The notes under the pieces are model-generated. The model searched no databases and was not told the DNA's origin. It saw only the letters and a program-made list of their open reading frames with translations. DNA of 35,411 bases from an uncultured bacterium (GTDB taxonomy: Bacteria > Cyanobacteriota > Vampirovibrionia > Gastranaerophilales > Gastranaerophilaceae). Below, one piece after another: positions 9,137-30,458 of the stretch (position 1 is its first letter; each line of letters begins with the position of its first letter). Position numbers and translations under genes: made by a program. The stretch covers positions 1 through 35,411 of the forward strand of contig CASFGU010000006.1 in NCBI GenBank assembly GCA_949294395.1, given 5' to 3'.

Positions 9137-9212
9137 TTTGTAACAAAATGTTAAGTTGTTCTTGAATCGTCTGAAATTCAATTGTACTCTGAGATAGGAT
9201 AAGATAAGATAG
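9137..9212 (+). promoter_or_regulatory. Promoter with HLR1-like box and GATAG pentamer repeat, copy 1
   Basis: The reverse complement of 9137-9154 reads TTAACATT-TT-GTTACAAA, one base from the cyanobacterial HLR1 consensus (two (G/T)TTACA(T/A)(T/A) units two bases apart). A -10-like TGTACT is at 9183-9188. It is followed by four pentamers, GATAG-GATAA-GATAA-GATAG (9193-9212), which would lie at the very start of the transcript. The same arrangement recurs at 29615-29696 with the same spacing to within one base. Confidence 0.6.
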
Positions 9213-9302
9213 GGGGCGTGTAGCAATCTTTTCGGGTAGAAATACTTTTTAAAAATATAAGTATTATTTATTTAAAGAGTATAAACACGAAAGGAGATTA
9301 AT

Positions 9303-10232
9303 ATGTTTGAACTGGGTAAAGTCGCTGGTTCCGGAATGGTTCAGCAGGACGGCAAAACGGGAAGTTCAAAGCGCAGGAGCTTTGGTGAAGAAGCGATTAA
9401 CTCTATTATGGATAATTACAAATCCGGCAAAACTAATAACAACAAGGGTTCTCATCAGGATGTAAAAGAGAAAAATAATTATGATGACTACAACAAGTTT
9501 AATAATCTGATGGAGAAATCTAAACTTTCCAACAGCCCGTTGAAAGAGGCTGATTTGCTGGCAAACGGTTTTAAAAAGAATGATTTGAGGGACAAGAACG
9601 GCGGTGTTTATTACACCAATCCTAAGACCGGTGAAGAAATAAGATTGTGTAACTGGGAAGGTTCAAACATATACGTAACAAGGGATGGTAAAAAATATAC
9701 ACAGTATTTTGATAAGTCAGGAAAGCCGGCAGGCGGTGAGGTTACCGTAACAAATAAAAACGGCTCTACTGTTACATATAAATACGAAAATGATATTGCC
9801 GGAAATAAATTTATTACAGACGTAAAACGAACAGACCCGCCTGAGGACAGAAGAGAGGAAATGGCGGCTGAAGGCATGAAGAAATTTCAGGATTTTATAA
9901 ATGATTTTGAAGAAGAACTTGGTATTCCGGATAAGTTTTTGCCGGTTTCTGGTATCGTTATTAAAGATGACGGTAGCGAAGAAGCAGTGCGTTATTCAGA
10001 GGACGGAAAGTATAAAATTACTATCCAGACCGATAAAGATGGCAGTCGCACACAAACTTATTCCAGAATATCTGCTTATTCCGGAAATACCCCTGTTTAT
10101 GAAGAAATAGGAACGTGGTCTGCCTATAAGCGTCAATATATTAATCCGGAGACAGGTGAAGGCGAAGGCCCATACGATTGGGGTTATAGACAGGATAACT
10201 ATATAACAGGTATAGATATGATGACAAAATAA
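9303..10232 (+). CDS. Unknown hydrophilic protein with YD-like beta stretches
   Basis: A 309-residue protein of no recognised family. Residues 1-60 are polar and low in structure (RRSFGEEAINSIMDNYKSG, then Asn/Lys-rich). Residues about 90-165 and 215-290 have Gly/Asn/Asp-rich beta-hairpin patterns (VYYTNPKTGEEIRL, GKKYTQYFDKSGKPAGGE, YKITIQTDKDGSRTQTYS) that resemble YD/RHS-type strands without being a clear match. There is no signal peptide or membrane helix. ATG at 9303 follows AAAGGAGA. Its promoter region matches that of the barrel-like gene at 29781, so the two are probably co-regulated. A shared terminator separates it from gyrA. Confidence 0.8.
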   Translation: MFELGKVAGSGMVQQDGKTGSSKRRSFGEEAINSIMDNYKSGKTNNNKGSHQDVKEKNNYDDYNKFNNLMEKSKLSNSPLKEADLLANGFKKNDLRDKNGGVYYTNPKTGEEIRLCNWEGSNIYVTRDGKKYTQYFDKSGKPAGGEVTVTNKNGSTVTYKYENDIAGNKFITDVKRTDPPEDRREEMAAEGMKKFQDFINDFEEELGIPDKFLPVSGIVIKDDGSEEAVRYSEDGKYKITIQTDKDGSRTQTYSRISAYSGNTPVYEEIGTWSAYKRQYINPETGEGEGPYDWGYRQDNYITGIDMMTK

Positions 10233-13199: not shown

Positions 13200-13427
13200 T
13201 CAAATATTCATATTCAAATTCAGCAAATCCTCCAGTTTTACCTCAAGAAATTCCGAGAGGTTTTTCATATAAAGTAAAGTGGGATTTGTGAGGCCCCGCT
13301 CTACTTTGCTGTAGTAACTTTTGTCTATATCAAGCTTATTTACAATATCATCCTGTGATATTCCCTTGAGAGACCGTATAACCTTGAGTTTAAGCCCTAC
13401 CTTTTTAAGAAATTCTTTATTGTCCAT
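13200..13427 (-). CDS. XRE-family HTH regulator A
   Basis: A 75-residue Cro/CI-type DNA-binding protein, essentially one helix-turn-helix domain: IRSLKGISQDDIVNKLDIDKSYYSKVERG (about residues 18-46) holds the two HTH helices, and NPTLLYMKNLSEFLEV completes the five-helix fold. No effector domain is present. The start at 13427 has no ribosome site. Instead TTGTAA-N17-TAAAAT ends seven bases before ATG, so the mRNA is probably leaderless. It is transcribed divergently from a prepilin gene, their promoters overlap around an inverted repeat, and it is the obvious candidate repressor of both. The stop codon abuts a repeat arm, so a longer ancestral C-terminus cannot be excluded. Confidence 0.88.
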   Translation of the reverse strand: MDNKEFLKKVGLKLKVIRSLKGISQDDIVNKLDIDKSYYSKVERGLTNPTLLYMKNLSEFLEVKLEDLLNLNMNI

Positions 13428-13434
13428 AATTTTA

Positions 13435-13500
13435 ATTTTATGGGGTTGACTTGAACGTTACAATAGTTTATAATAATAAAAAATAGGTTTATAAACTATT
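13435..13500. promoter_or_regulatory. Overlapping divergent promoters and operator, HTH A / prepilin A
   Basis: Plus strand: TTGACT (13446-13451), 17 bases, TATAAT (13469-13474), driving the prepilin. Minus strand: TTGTAA (13458-13463), 17 bases, TAAAAT (13435-13440), driving the HTH gene. A perfect 12-bp inverted repeat, AATAGTTTATAA (13462-13473) and TTATAAACTATT (13489-13500), covers the prepilin -10. GTTACAAT-AG-TTTATAAT (13457-13474) is also one base from the HLR1 consensus. Confidence 0.7.
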
Positions 13501-13539: not shown

Positions 13540-14232
13540 ATGAGTAAAACAGGATTTACGCATAGAGAATTTTTGCTCTTGAACACAGATTTTAAAAAAA
13601 TAGCATTCACACTTGCCGAAGTATTAATAACACTGGGAATTATCGGGATAGTTGCAGCGATGACGCTTCCTGTACTTACAGCAAAGTATCAGCAAAAAGT
13701 TCTGGCAACACAATTTAAAAAAGCCTATGCAAATCTTCAAACTGCCATAAATACCGTAAATTCAAACAACGGTATTCCTTATGAATGCTACACAATAAGA
13801 TTCGGGATAGATTACCACGTAACAGAGTGCAGGGCATTCTGGGAGAAAGTTCTGGAACAGTATCAGGTAGTTAATACCTGTAAACACTCTACCCCTGGTT
13901 GTCGTCCGCAATACAAAAGCAAAGCTCAGGTTCTTGCGGAAGGCGGAAAAGTCCGCAACAACGCCTGCTCCCATCCTATGAATGAACAAACCGGATATAA
14001 CTTAAAAGATGGCTCAATGATTTATATTTATAACTATCCTGATTATAATCATAACTCATTATTTTTCGGTCTGGATGTGAATGGATTAAAAGGGCCGAAC
14101 AGGTGGGGGTATGATTTGTTTTATCTTAATCTATACAGAGAAAATGCAAGAAAACCTGTCATCGGGTTAACATTCGTATGCGAACTTATTGAAAAAGGCG
14201 GTCAGTCCGCGGAAGATATTATGCTGAAATAA
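13540..14232 (+). CDS. Prepilin-like protein A
   Basis: A 230-residue type IV pilin/pseudopilin-like protein. A 21-residue leader precedes the cleavage/methylation region IAFTLAEVLITLGIIG and the hydrophobic helix (IVAAMTLPVL). It then has a conserved helix (TAKYQQKVLATQFKKAYANL), a variable middle with four cysteines (about residues 80-150) and a conserved C-terminal block from HNSLFFGLDVNGLKGPNRWG to SAEDIMLK. The ribosome site AGAGGAT lies seven bases before ATG. It is divergent from an HTH regulator. A close paralog lies inverted at 16658-17361, with nearly identical ends and a different middle. Assembly and secretion genes are absent from the window, so its machinery is elsewhere. Confidence 0.87.
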   Translation: MSKTGFTHREFLLLNTDFKKIAFTLAEVLITLGIIGIVAAMTLPVLTAKYQQKVLATQFKKAYANLQTAINTVNSNNGIPYECYTIRFGIDYHVTECRAFWEKVLEQYQVVNTCKHSTPGCRPQYKSKAQVLAEGGKVRNNACSHPMNEQTGYNLKDGSMIYIYNYPDYNHNSLFFGLDVNGLKGPNRWGYDLFYLNLYRENARKPVIGLTFVCELIEKGGQSAEDIMLK

Positions 14233-16657: not shown

Positions 16658-17361
16658 TTATTTCAGCATAATATCTTCCGCGGACTGACCGCCTTTTTCT
16701 ATAAGTTCGCATACAAATGTTAAGCCTATGACCGGTTTTCTTGCGTTTTCTCTGTATAGATTAAGATAAAACAAATCATAACCCCATCTGTTCGGCCCTT
16801 TTAATCCATTCACATCCAGACCGAAAAATAATGAGTTATGATTAGTATATCCGCTTTCCGGAGAATTAAAGAGATAAAGAATAGAACCATCATTCAAATT
16901 GTATGCGTAATGTGAATCTATCGGAAAAGAACACGCCGAATTATTTATAGTTCCGCCGTCTGCAAGAACTTCTGCTTTTGATTTGTATTTCGGGCGGCAA
17001 TTTGTATTTTTCCAGTTACCGCAATCTTTTATCGATTTGTACTGCCCGAGAACTTTAGGCCAAAATTCATGACACTGGTTGAAGTAATAACCGCTGTTTT
17101 TAAGCGTGTAGCATTCATAAGGGATACCGTTGTTTGAATTTACGGTATTTATGGCAGTTTGAAGATTTGCATAAGATTTTTTGAATTGAGTTGCAAGAAC
17201 TTTCTGCTGGTATTTGGCTGTAAGTACGGGAAGCGTCATTGCGGCAACTATCCCGATAATTCCTGGCGTTATTAATACCTCGGCTAGTGTGAATGCTATT
17301 TTACAAGAATCTGCTGTCGGGTGAGAAAATTTTCTGTAAGCTTAAACCATTTTATTTGCAT
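16658..17361 (-). pseudogene. Prepilin-like protein B, frameshifted near the 5' end
   Basis: Inverted paralog of the prepilin at 13540. ATG at 17361 has a good ribosome site (AGGAG at 17368-17372) and reads MQIKWFKLTENFLTRQQILVK before TAG. One base over, the sequence continues as IAFTLAEVLITPGIIG, then 215 residues like copy A. The break is at a four-A run (GTAAAATAG) where copy A has seven; one extra A would restore the frame. A Pro replaces the usual Leu in LITLGIIG. The last 60 residues are identical to copy A, differing at about eight silent bases, which argues for recent function or gene conversion. The middle, with its cysteines, is different. An uninterrupted stretch starts at 17239. 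Confidence 0.75.
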
Positions 17362-17391: not shown

Positions 17392-17466
17392 AAATATTTA
17401 AGTGTACTTTAATATTATTTATTACAATTAAATATTTGTCAAGTGAAAAGGATAATTCGCTATAAT
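17392..17466. promoter_or_regulatory. Divergent promoter region, prepilin B / HTH B
   Basis: Minus strand: TTGACA (revcomp of 17437-17442) with an AT-rich AATAAT 17 bases on. Plus strand: TTGTCA (17436-17441), 19 bases, TATAAT (17461-17466) for the HTH gene. A 10-bp inverted repeat, AAATATTTAA (17392-17401) and TTAAATATTT (17428-17437), lies between them. It parallels the layout at 13435-13500, but the sequences differ. Confidence 0.55.
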
Positions 17467-17472
17467 AATCAA

Positions 17473-17676
17473 ATGATTACAATAAAGCTGTATAATTTAA
17501 TCTGGAAATATAAAGTTAAGGGGTATCAGCTGGCCGAAGCAACAGATTTGAGCACTGCTACAATATCAAAGCTTATGAAGGGTGAGAATATTGATGTAAA
17601 GCTCAGTACAATAAATAAGCTATGTAATTATTTTAAATGTGATTTAAAAGATTTACTGGAATATACACCGGATTAG
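17473..17676 (+). CDS. XRE-family HTH regulator B
   Basis: A 67-residue single-domain Cro/CI-like regulator. The HTH lies in YQLAEATDLSTATISKLMKG (about residues 17-36), followed by LSTINKLCNYFKCDLKDLLE, the pattern of small YozG-type repressors. I start at ATG 17473 rather than 17443: TATAAT lies at 17461-17466, six bases before it, so the longer reading would begin upstream of its own promoter, and the mRNA is probably leaderless. It is divergent from the disrupted prepilin B, mirroring the HTH A/prepilin A pair, but the two regulators belong to different subgroups. Confidence 0.82.
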   Translation: MITIKLYNLIWKYKVKGYQLAEATDLSTATISKLMKGENIDVKLSTINKLCNYFKCDLKDLLEYTPD

Positions 17677-29614: not shown

Positions 29615-29696
29615 TATGTAACGAAATGTAAATATAAATTTAAAATGCCTGAAAGTTCAATTATACTCAGAGATAGGATAGGATAGGATAGGATAG
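29615..29696 (+). promoter_or_regulatory. Promoter with HLR1 box and GATAG pentamer repeat, copy 2
   Basis: The reverse complement of 29615-29632 reads TTTACATT-TC-GTTACATA, a full match to the HLR1 consensus. TATACT (29662-29667) is the likely -10; five GATAG pentamers follow at 29672-29696. Spacing from box to pentamers is 55 bases versus 54 in the copy at 9137. The segment CTGAAA-TTCAATT-TACTC-GAGATAGG is shared by both. Confidence 0.65.
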
Positions 29697-29780
29697 GCGG
29701 GGCAGTATGGCAATTTTTCTGAAGAAAATTTTTTTATAACTGTGTAAGGGATATTAAAAGAAAGGAAAGGAAAAATTATT

Positions 29781-30458
29781 ATGGGGAACACAGTTGAAAG
29801 AGTAAATGCAGCACACACAGCAGCAGTATCATCAAAAGAAAATGAAGCACCGAAGGCTAAGAAAACAAAACTCGAAATAGGTGCAGCATTAGTTCATCAG
29901 GACGGTTTTAAACCGGGTATTACAATTGGTCTTGATCAGACTTTGTTAGAAAAGAACGGTTCAAAATTGACAATCGGCGCAGAAGCCGGCGCCTATCTTA
30001 AAATGGGCAGAGTTGGAGCAGATTTGACTTATACAAAAGAACTTAATCCTAACCTGAAACTCGGCGGCGCTCTTGAAGGAAGCTATGATTTTAAAGAAAA
30101 AATTAAAAATTATACATATATGGATGGTTCACCTGCTATTCGTATAATACAGCAACAGGACAAAAGCAAGGGCTATGCTTTAGGTAAAGCGTTTGTTGAA
30201 TATTCACCATCTTCAAAATGGAATTTGAAGGCAGGAGTTAATGCAGGTGAAGTATTCAATGATAAGAATTACAGCTCAGAGATGACTATTATGGATAGAC
30301 ACTCAACAGAAACTACGCAGTCTGTACTGAAAAAAAATAAATTTAAAGCGGGTGCTTTTGCAGAAGCTTCTTATAACATCAACGATAATTTAAAAATCGG
30401 TGCATACGGAGATTCTCTTAAAAAAGAAGGCGGCATAAGTTTTAAATATACATTTTAA
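29781..30458 (+). CDS. Beta-barrel-like protein without a signal peptide
   Basis: A 225-residue protein. From about residue 29 it consists of alternating amphipathic strands (KLEIGAALVHQ, KLTIGAEAGAYLKMG, NLKLGGALEGSYDF, NLKAGVNAGEVF, KFKAGAFAEASYNI, NLKIGAYGDSL) and ends GGISFKYTF, a terminal aromatic as in outer-membrane barrels. No Sec signal is present; the first 28 residues are polar and Ala/Lys-rich. It may be a barrel exported by another route, or a soluble beta protein. The ribosome site GAAAGGAAAGG is before ATG. Its promoter matches that of the gene at 9303. No family recognised. Confidence 0.78.
   Translation: MGNTVERVNAAHTAAVSSKENEAPKAKKTKLEIGAALVHQDGFKPGITIGLDQTLLEKNGSKLTIGAEAGAYLKMGRVGADLTYTKELNPNLKLGGALEGSYDFKEKIKNYTYMDGSPAIRIIQQQDKSKGYALGKAFVEYSPSSKWNLKAGVNAGEVFNDKNYSSEMTIMDRHSTETTQSVLKKNKFKAGAFAEASYNINDNLKIGAYGDSLKKEGGISFKYTF

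Follow-up and report, generated by a model that had tools for sequence, protein, structure and literature searches.

A recurrent HLR1-type promoter module with pentamer arrays at the predicted start site, probably controlled by RpaB, in gut Gastranaerophilales

The window, i.e. the whole stretch of 35,411 nucleotides of DNA that was analysed, contains two intergenic boxes similar to HLR1, the element bound by the response regulator RpaB in photosynthetic cyanobacteria. Each box is followed by a promoter, a leader and an orphan gene:

9137-9154, minus strand: HLR1/RpaB-like box of promoter 1, TTAACATTTTGTTACAAA, one mismatch
9139-9154, plus strand: plus-strand core of the promoter 1 box, TGTAACAAAATGTTAA
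9171-9176, plus strand: CTGAAA spacer element of promoter 1, between box and -10
9183-9188, plus strand: -10 element TGTACT of promoter 1, 28 bp past the box
9195-9214, plus strand: degenerate pentamer tract of promoter 1, TAGGA TAAGA TAAGA TAGGG, at the predicted start site
9215-9302, plus strand: conserved 5' leader of promoter 1, GGCGTGTAGCAATCTTTTCGGG..., ending in the ribosome site AAAGGAGA
9303-10232, plus strand: target gene 1, a 309-aa orphan without Pfam match, predicted beta-rich repeats (pLDDT 66)
29615-29632, minus strand: HLR1/RpaB-like box of promoter 2, TTTACATTTCGTTACATA, no mismatch
29617-29632, plus strand: plus-strand core of the promoter 2 box, TGTAACGAAATGTAAA, perfect
29649-29654, plus strand: CTGAAA spacer element of promoter 2, between box and -10
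29662-29667, plus strand: -10 element TATACT of promoter 2, 29 bp past the box
29674-29697, plus strand: pentamer array of promoter 2, TAGGA x4.8, at the predicted start site
29698-29780, plus strand: 5' leader of promoter 2
29781-30458, plus strand: target gene 2, encoding an orphan of 225 aa with no obvious signal peptide; barrel-like only as judged by eye

Both boxes satisfy the HLR1 direct repeat KTTACAWWNNKTTACAWW, the one at 29615-29632 with 0 mismatches and the one at 9137-9154 with 1. The window holds three sites with at most one mismatch, while 0.19 were expected from shuffled sequences. The third site at 13457 lacks the surrounding module and is probably due to chance. Alignment of the two upstream regions revealed a long common module that extends far beyond the box. 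It consists of the box, a spacer of 28-29 bp with CTGAAA, the -10 element, a GATAG-type repeat, a G-rich stretch and the leader, in this order, with the start codon about 110 nt downstream of the -10 element in both promoters. With base 8 past the -10 hexamer taken as the predicted start, promoter 1 has its box at -59 to -42 and promoter 2 at -60 to -43, both with a centre near -50. Promoter 1 is degenerate in the box, the -10 element and the repeats; its ortholog in another genome (G008, L068) has TATACT at 29 bp and about five clean TAGGA units. The ortholog of promoter 2 (L073) has a longer array with 33 nt versus 26 nt.

An initial annotation of the window, made from the sequence alone, had reported both boxes with these coordinates and mismatches about 50 bases before the predicted start points of two genes of unknown function, all of which held. 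Its barrel-like assignment of the second protein is supported by eye only, because the fold prediction was unusable with a pLDDT of 29. No PDB structure reliably matched the prediction for the protein encoded at 9303 (best E 1.3e-3, TM 0.16). The view of two isolated boxes was too narrow in that it overlooked the shared module, its recurrence in the genome and the family, and the pentamer array at the predicted start site.

Genome-wide counts were obtained by pattern searches of the genome that contains the window (G000, 2.11 Mb, 99.9% complete). Searches for the array, the -10 region and the box converged on about 15 sites with the module consensus of TGTAACNAAATGTAAA, then 28-29 bp, then TATAMT. 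The exact box TGTAACNAAATGTAAA occurred 10 times compared to an expectation of 0.00 in a Markov-1 genome of equal length, and TATAMT was located 28-30 bp after the box in all 10. A reversed control pattern had no match in 13 genomes of the genus. The strict module was present in 82 of 241 genomes of the order, all of them in one family, with 0 control matches. In 62 family genomes, a relaxed pattern of HLR1 plus -10 yielded about 410 matches versus 42 control matches. For about 80 other genomes of the phylum the corresponding numbers were 89 versus 20, with the same orientation to the -10 element; both totals are hand sums from a table. These data show that the box recurs and lies at a fixed distance from the -10 element. 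That the boxes define a dedicated promoter class of gut Gastranaerophilales is likely, in the absence of data on binding, expression or start sites. The CTGAAA element was kept in the spacer between box and -10 of nearly all modules, across genera, and matches no known element. In four genomes (G083, G065, G051 and G062) relaxed HLR1 boxes were followed at a similar distance by an ATTAAASY-like sequence, not by TATAMT. These boxes of other genera may belong to a second type of RpaB promoter without pentamers.

Tandem repeats with a period of 5 followed the -10 element in about 110 of 120 modules. The pentamers were present in 2 to 16 copies at the predicted start. TAGGA (45), TATGA (34), TATGG (18) and TATGT (7) were the prevalent units, TAGAA, TAGGT and TAGCA were rare, and differing units coexisted within one genome. 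While the unit sequence varied, the period of 5 and the phase relative to the -10 element were kept; the first T-A step was located 6 bp past the -10 element in 82 of 110 modules. The commonest tract had a length of 22 nt (31 of about 110), the longest of about 80 nt. Orthologs with otherwise near-identical flanks differed in copy number, with 6.4 units in L057 versus 4.4 in L067, 2.6 in L016 versus about 6 in L058, and 4.2 in L059 versus 2 in L060. Arrays with a fixed phase and with variable unit and copy number are thereby shown.

A search for the array only (TAKGD x4, nine genomes) yielded about 21 distinct arrays, all of which follow a clear box except for three with a half-site, a weak box and a position at a contig edge, respectively. 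No array was detected by this search in four genomes without strict modules. Because nearly all of these independently found arrays follow a box and a -10 element at the usual spacing, we concluded that the array belongs to the promoter class. Within each unit, a TANNNT sequence looks like a -10 element; in the first of them, the A falls at about +1 relative to the predicted start. We found no description of such an array at a start site in the literature searched; the start site is predicted and the role of the array inferred. L100 (G184:C1:163209) has an array of the telomere-like unit TAGGT in about 16 copies, also at the predicted start site.

RpaB is the master regulator of light and redox responses in cyanobacteria and has relatives in plastids. 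Exactly three OmpR-type regulators are encoded in G000. One of them (L053, G000:C25) matched the NCBIfam equivalog NF045944 for RpaB with 362.1 bits versus a cut-off of 330, the two others (L054 and L055) with 210 and 198 bits. L053 was 69% identical to a Synechococcus homolog and 99% identical to the RpaB of a Candidatus Gastranaerophilales genome. Because of the latter identity we consider the organism to be a non-photosynthetic relative of cyanobacteria, which the initial annotation had stated only as a condition. Its recognition helix, DTRVVDVHISRLRSKLE, is the same as in RpaB of a photosynthetic Synechococcus and was invariant in 22 of 22 members of the order checked, whereas the helices of L054 and L055 differ (DVRMLRVHVGGLRNKIE and DIETIRVHIRHLRSKLD). 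The presence of an RpaB ortholog is thus shown. The annotation had considered its proposal refuted if an OmpR-type regulator with an RpaB-like DNA-binding domain were missing or if HLR1 matches were no commoner upstream of genes than expected. Neither is the case, with an ortholog above the cut-off that carries the Synechococcus helix, and with boxes far above chance at a fixed distance before the -10 element.

It had also suggested looking for the kinase of RpaB. An NblS-like kinase was found, the best match among 13 in the genome being L085 (G000:C25:50736-52127) on the same contig as RpaB. It scored 332 bits with NF045911, far below the curated cut-off of 1000, which no control genome reached, Synechococcus elongatus included.

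The only HLR1 site upstream of rpaB is weak with 2 mismatches and autoregulation was therefore rejected. RpaB was near-universal with 22 of 23 checked, so that its presence was rejected as a predictor of module-bearing genomes. Genera that have few strict modules or none also encode RpaB (g13, g14, g17, g20 and other families). Thus, the module cannot be the only use of RpaB. Because RpaB and the module do not co-vary, RpaB must use other sites in module-poor genera.

The 115 proteins downstream of modules fell into 62 similarity clusters, 35 of which were singletons. A Pfam scan of 10 targets yielded at most weak matches below the cut-off, EF-hand-like at best. Thus, the module is common to unrelated genes. 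Most targets start without a Sec-type signal as judged by eye without a predictor, and no photosynthesis or high-light genes were among the targets examined. In G000, a fliE-fliF-fliH-flhA-like operon is immediately preceded by one module gene (C45:6868-7410). G005 has an equivalent module 6 kb before the same export gate on the same strand. This gate is a second FHIPEP type that scores about 730 bits, differs from the flagellar gate with its score of about 870 bits, and was near-universal in the order. In addition, a protein family with the common N-terminus MG..ASQAR.L..TARK occurs near the export-gate operon and under modules in other genera. Secretion of the targets by a flagellum-derived type III secretion system (T3SS) is conceivable, yet no more than a guess. 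Since all but 4 of the 241 order genomes have FHIPEP (237 of 241), the presence of a T3SS is uninformative as an explanation of the module distribution.

Some further observations concern these genes. The export gate at G000:C45:498-6668 (L365) has FliE, FliF and FliH as neighbours. The FHIPEP gate of about 730 bits was also detected in genomes without a flagellar-type FlhA (about 870 bits), and it appears to represent a conserved non-flagellar, flagellum-derived T3SS of Gastranaerophilales. A 491-aa protein (L364, G000:C59:9041-10516) combines a weak DUF4177-like start with a C-terminal FHIPEP-like domain (152 bits) and is encoded outside any secretion gene cluster. The reading frame of the module gene L025 (MSFLSIENFGG..., G000:C20 near 33300) is interrupted by a stop after 35 codons, beyond which coding-like sequence continues; a pseudogene or an assembly error may account for this.

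The module shares with the HLR1/RpaB regulon (PMC13421787; PMC11633204) the 18-bp direct-repeat consensus, an orthologous regulator and an identical recognition helix. Activating HLR1 sites of photosynthetic cyanobacteria are located at -66 to -45 (PMC13421787). The boxes reported here belong to the same positional class at about -60 to -43, slightly past the limit of -45 when counted from the predicted start. This agrees with the activator position proposed by the initial annotation; activation itself is inferred. In contrast to the photosynthetic RpaB regulon, the targets examined include no genes for photosynthesis or light responses, the spacing between box and -10 element is a strict 28-29 bp, and the pentamer array is not described in the relevant sections of the RpaB papers (PMC13421787; PMC11633204). 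Homologs of RpaA, RpaB and NblS have been reported in Melainabacteria (Di Rienzi 2013, PMC3787301; PMC4040986; PMC5877343), where their function was stated as probably different (PMC3787301). The relevant sections of these papers deal with the regulators only, without a binding site or a target, whereas we report a box and targets. We found no paper on targets of RpaA, RpaB or NblS in the Melainabacteria lineage in the full-text literature searched.

The TAACTGA heptamers of Beggiatoaceae and some Cyanobacteria, whose function is unknown, are also short tandem repeats in few copies before many unrelated genes (PMC4679880). Yet they are located beside the start codon and have one fixed unit, while the pentamers are at the predicted transcription start behind an HLR1 box, and their unit varies although their phase to the -10 element is fixed. 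In Moraxella, expression of uspA2 is set by the number of tetranucleotide repeats in its 5' UTR. Unlike the pentamers at many loci, this concerns tetramers at one gene without a common activator box. In promoter-proximal pausing by sigma70 of E. coli a -10-like hexamer has its second base between -1 and +2 of a promoter with a normal -10 element (PMC7876045). The first TANNNT of the array sits where these pause promoters have their -10-like hexamer, which is no more than a resemblance, with pausing as a hypothesis. The E. coli study describes one such element per promoter, the arrays comprise up to 16 in steps of 5 bp.

Because the promoter carries an RpaB-type box, the old "light" regulator probably runs unknown, non-photosynthetic genes. 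We favor the view that the box is an activator site of the RpaB type heading a non-photosynthetic regulon of mostly orphan proteins, which is likely, although binding of RpaB, activation and the start site are inferred. The regulon without a light role that the initial annotation had proposed is supported as the best explanation to this extent. Phosphorylated RpaB, probably under the control of an NblS-like kinase, would bind at about -60 to -43, where the two direct half-sites TGTAAC/TGTAAA are located, and recruit RNA polymerase to the -10 element TATAMT, which has only a weak -35 element. Transcription would begin at the T-A step that opens the tandem pentamer array. The putative targets are a scattered set, mostly orphans without obvious Sec signals and unrelated to photosynthesis. 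The role of the array is likewise inferred. The leading idea is that its -10-like TANNNT elements act as a ladder within the initially transcribed region and would hold sigma-bound polymerase near the promoter such that copy number tunes the output. In a bolder reading, the array would cover the start site and the bases transcribed first, and a tunable ladder of pause or re-initiation elements, activation by RpaB and a non-Sec regulon would act jointly. This combination is possible, with pausing inferred, as is the further notion that the regulon consists of substrates of the flagellum-derived T3SS.

Alternatively, the array may be a slippage-prone contingency tract, in which drift of copy number switches or tunes the targets, i.e. 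phase variation over about 15 loci. Such a function is possible; it is compatible with activation by RpaB and competes only with the pause-ladder role. It is supported by copy numbers that differ between orthologs with otherwise near-identical flanks and by some arrays of 15-16 units. On the other hand, a length of exactly 22 nt is the most frequent (31 of about 110 tracts), and nearly every unit retains its T-A step, in phase with the -10 element. Moreover, most arrays have 4-5 units, which is short for rapid switching, and the differences in copy number are known between species only, without a comparison of strains within a species. An action of the array in RNA, as 5'-terminal protein sites, ribosome standby, R-loop or G-quadruplex former, is unlikely. 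The arrays are mostly purine-rich, and TAGGA units are Shine-Dalgarno-like and form GG tracts. Yet TATGA, TATGT and TAGAA have neither property and units are mixed within one genome, so that a G-quadruplex or Shine-Dalgarno repeat was rejected as the general role. No Rfam family matched anywhere in the window, which also excluded a known RNA element in the leader.

Binding of the box by one of the other OmpR-type regulators instead of RpaB (L054 or L055, one of which may be an RpaA ortholog) has to be considered because OmpR-type regulators bind similar direct repeats, G000 has exactly two others, and RpaA has promoters in common with RpaB in photosynthetic cyanobacteria (PMC13421787). We regard it as very unlikely since the recognition helices of L054 and L055 differ, that of RpaB is the Synechococcus one and the box equals the RpaB consensus letter for letter. 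The module might also be a mobile or gene-converted promoter cassette, conserved by recent copying and not by selection on its parts. Near-identical leaders over long stretches between different genes of one genome (e.g. L027 and L030) are in line with this. It appears improbable, however, as spacer and leader diverge across genera, while the box, the spacing, the -10 element, CTGAAA and the period of 5 persist, and the pentamer sequence changes while its period stays.

Reports of RpaB in non-photosynthetic relatives go back to 2013, with no role known for it. With a defined box, promoter and target list the non-photosynthetic role of RpaB becomes directly testable. The same data bear on whether the pairing of RpaB and HLR1 predates photosynthesis in the phylum. 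Because the arrays are conserved through changes of the unit, they provide a good natural experiment for studying the control of output by the first transcribed bases.

Elsewhere in the window two pilin-like genes (13540-14232, plus strand, and 16658-17239, minus strand) have near-identical C-termini in inverted orientation and flank a dTDP-rhamnose gene set. Each is located near a small XRE-type regulator (13200-13427 and 17443-17676). The inverted pair could possibly allow inversion of the dTDP-rhamnose cassette.
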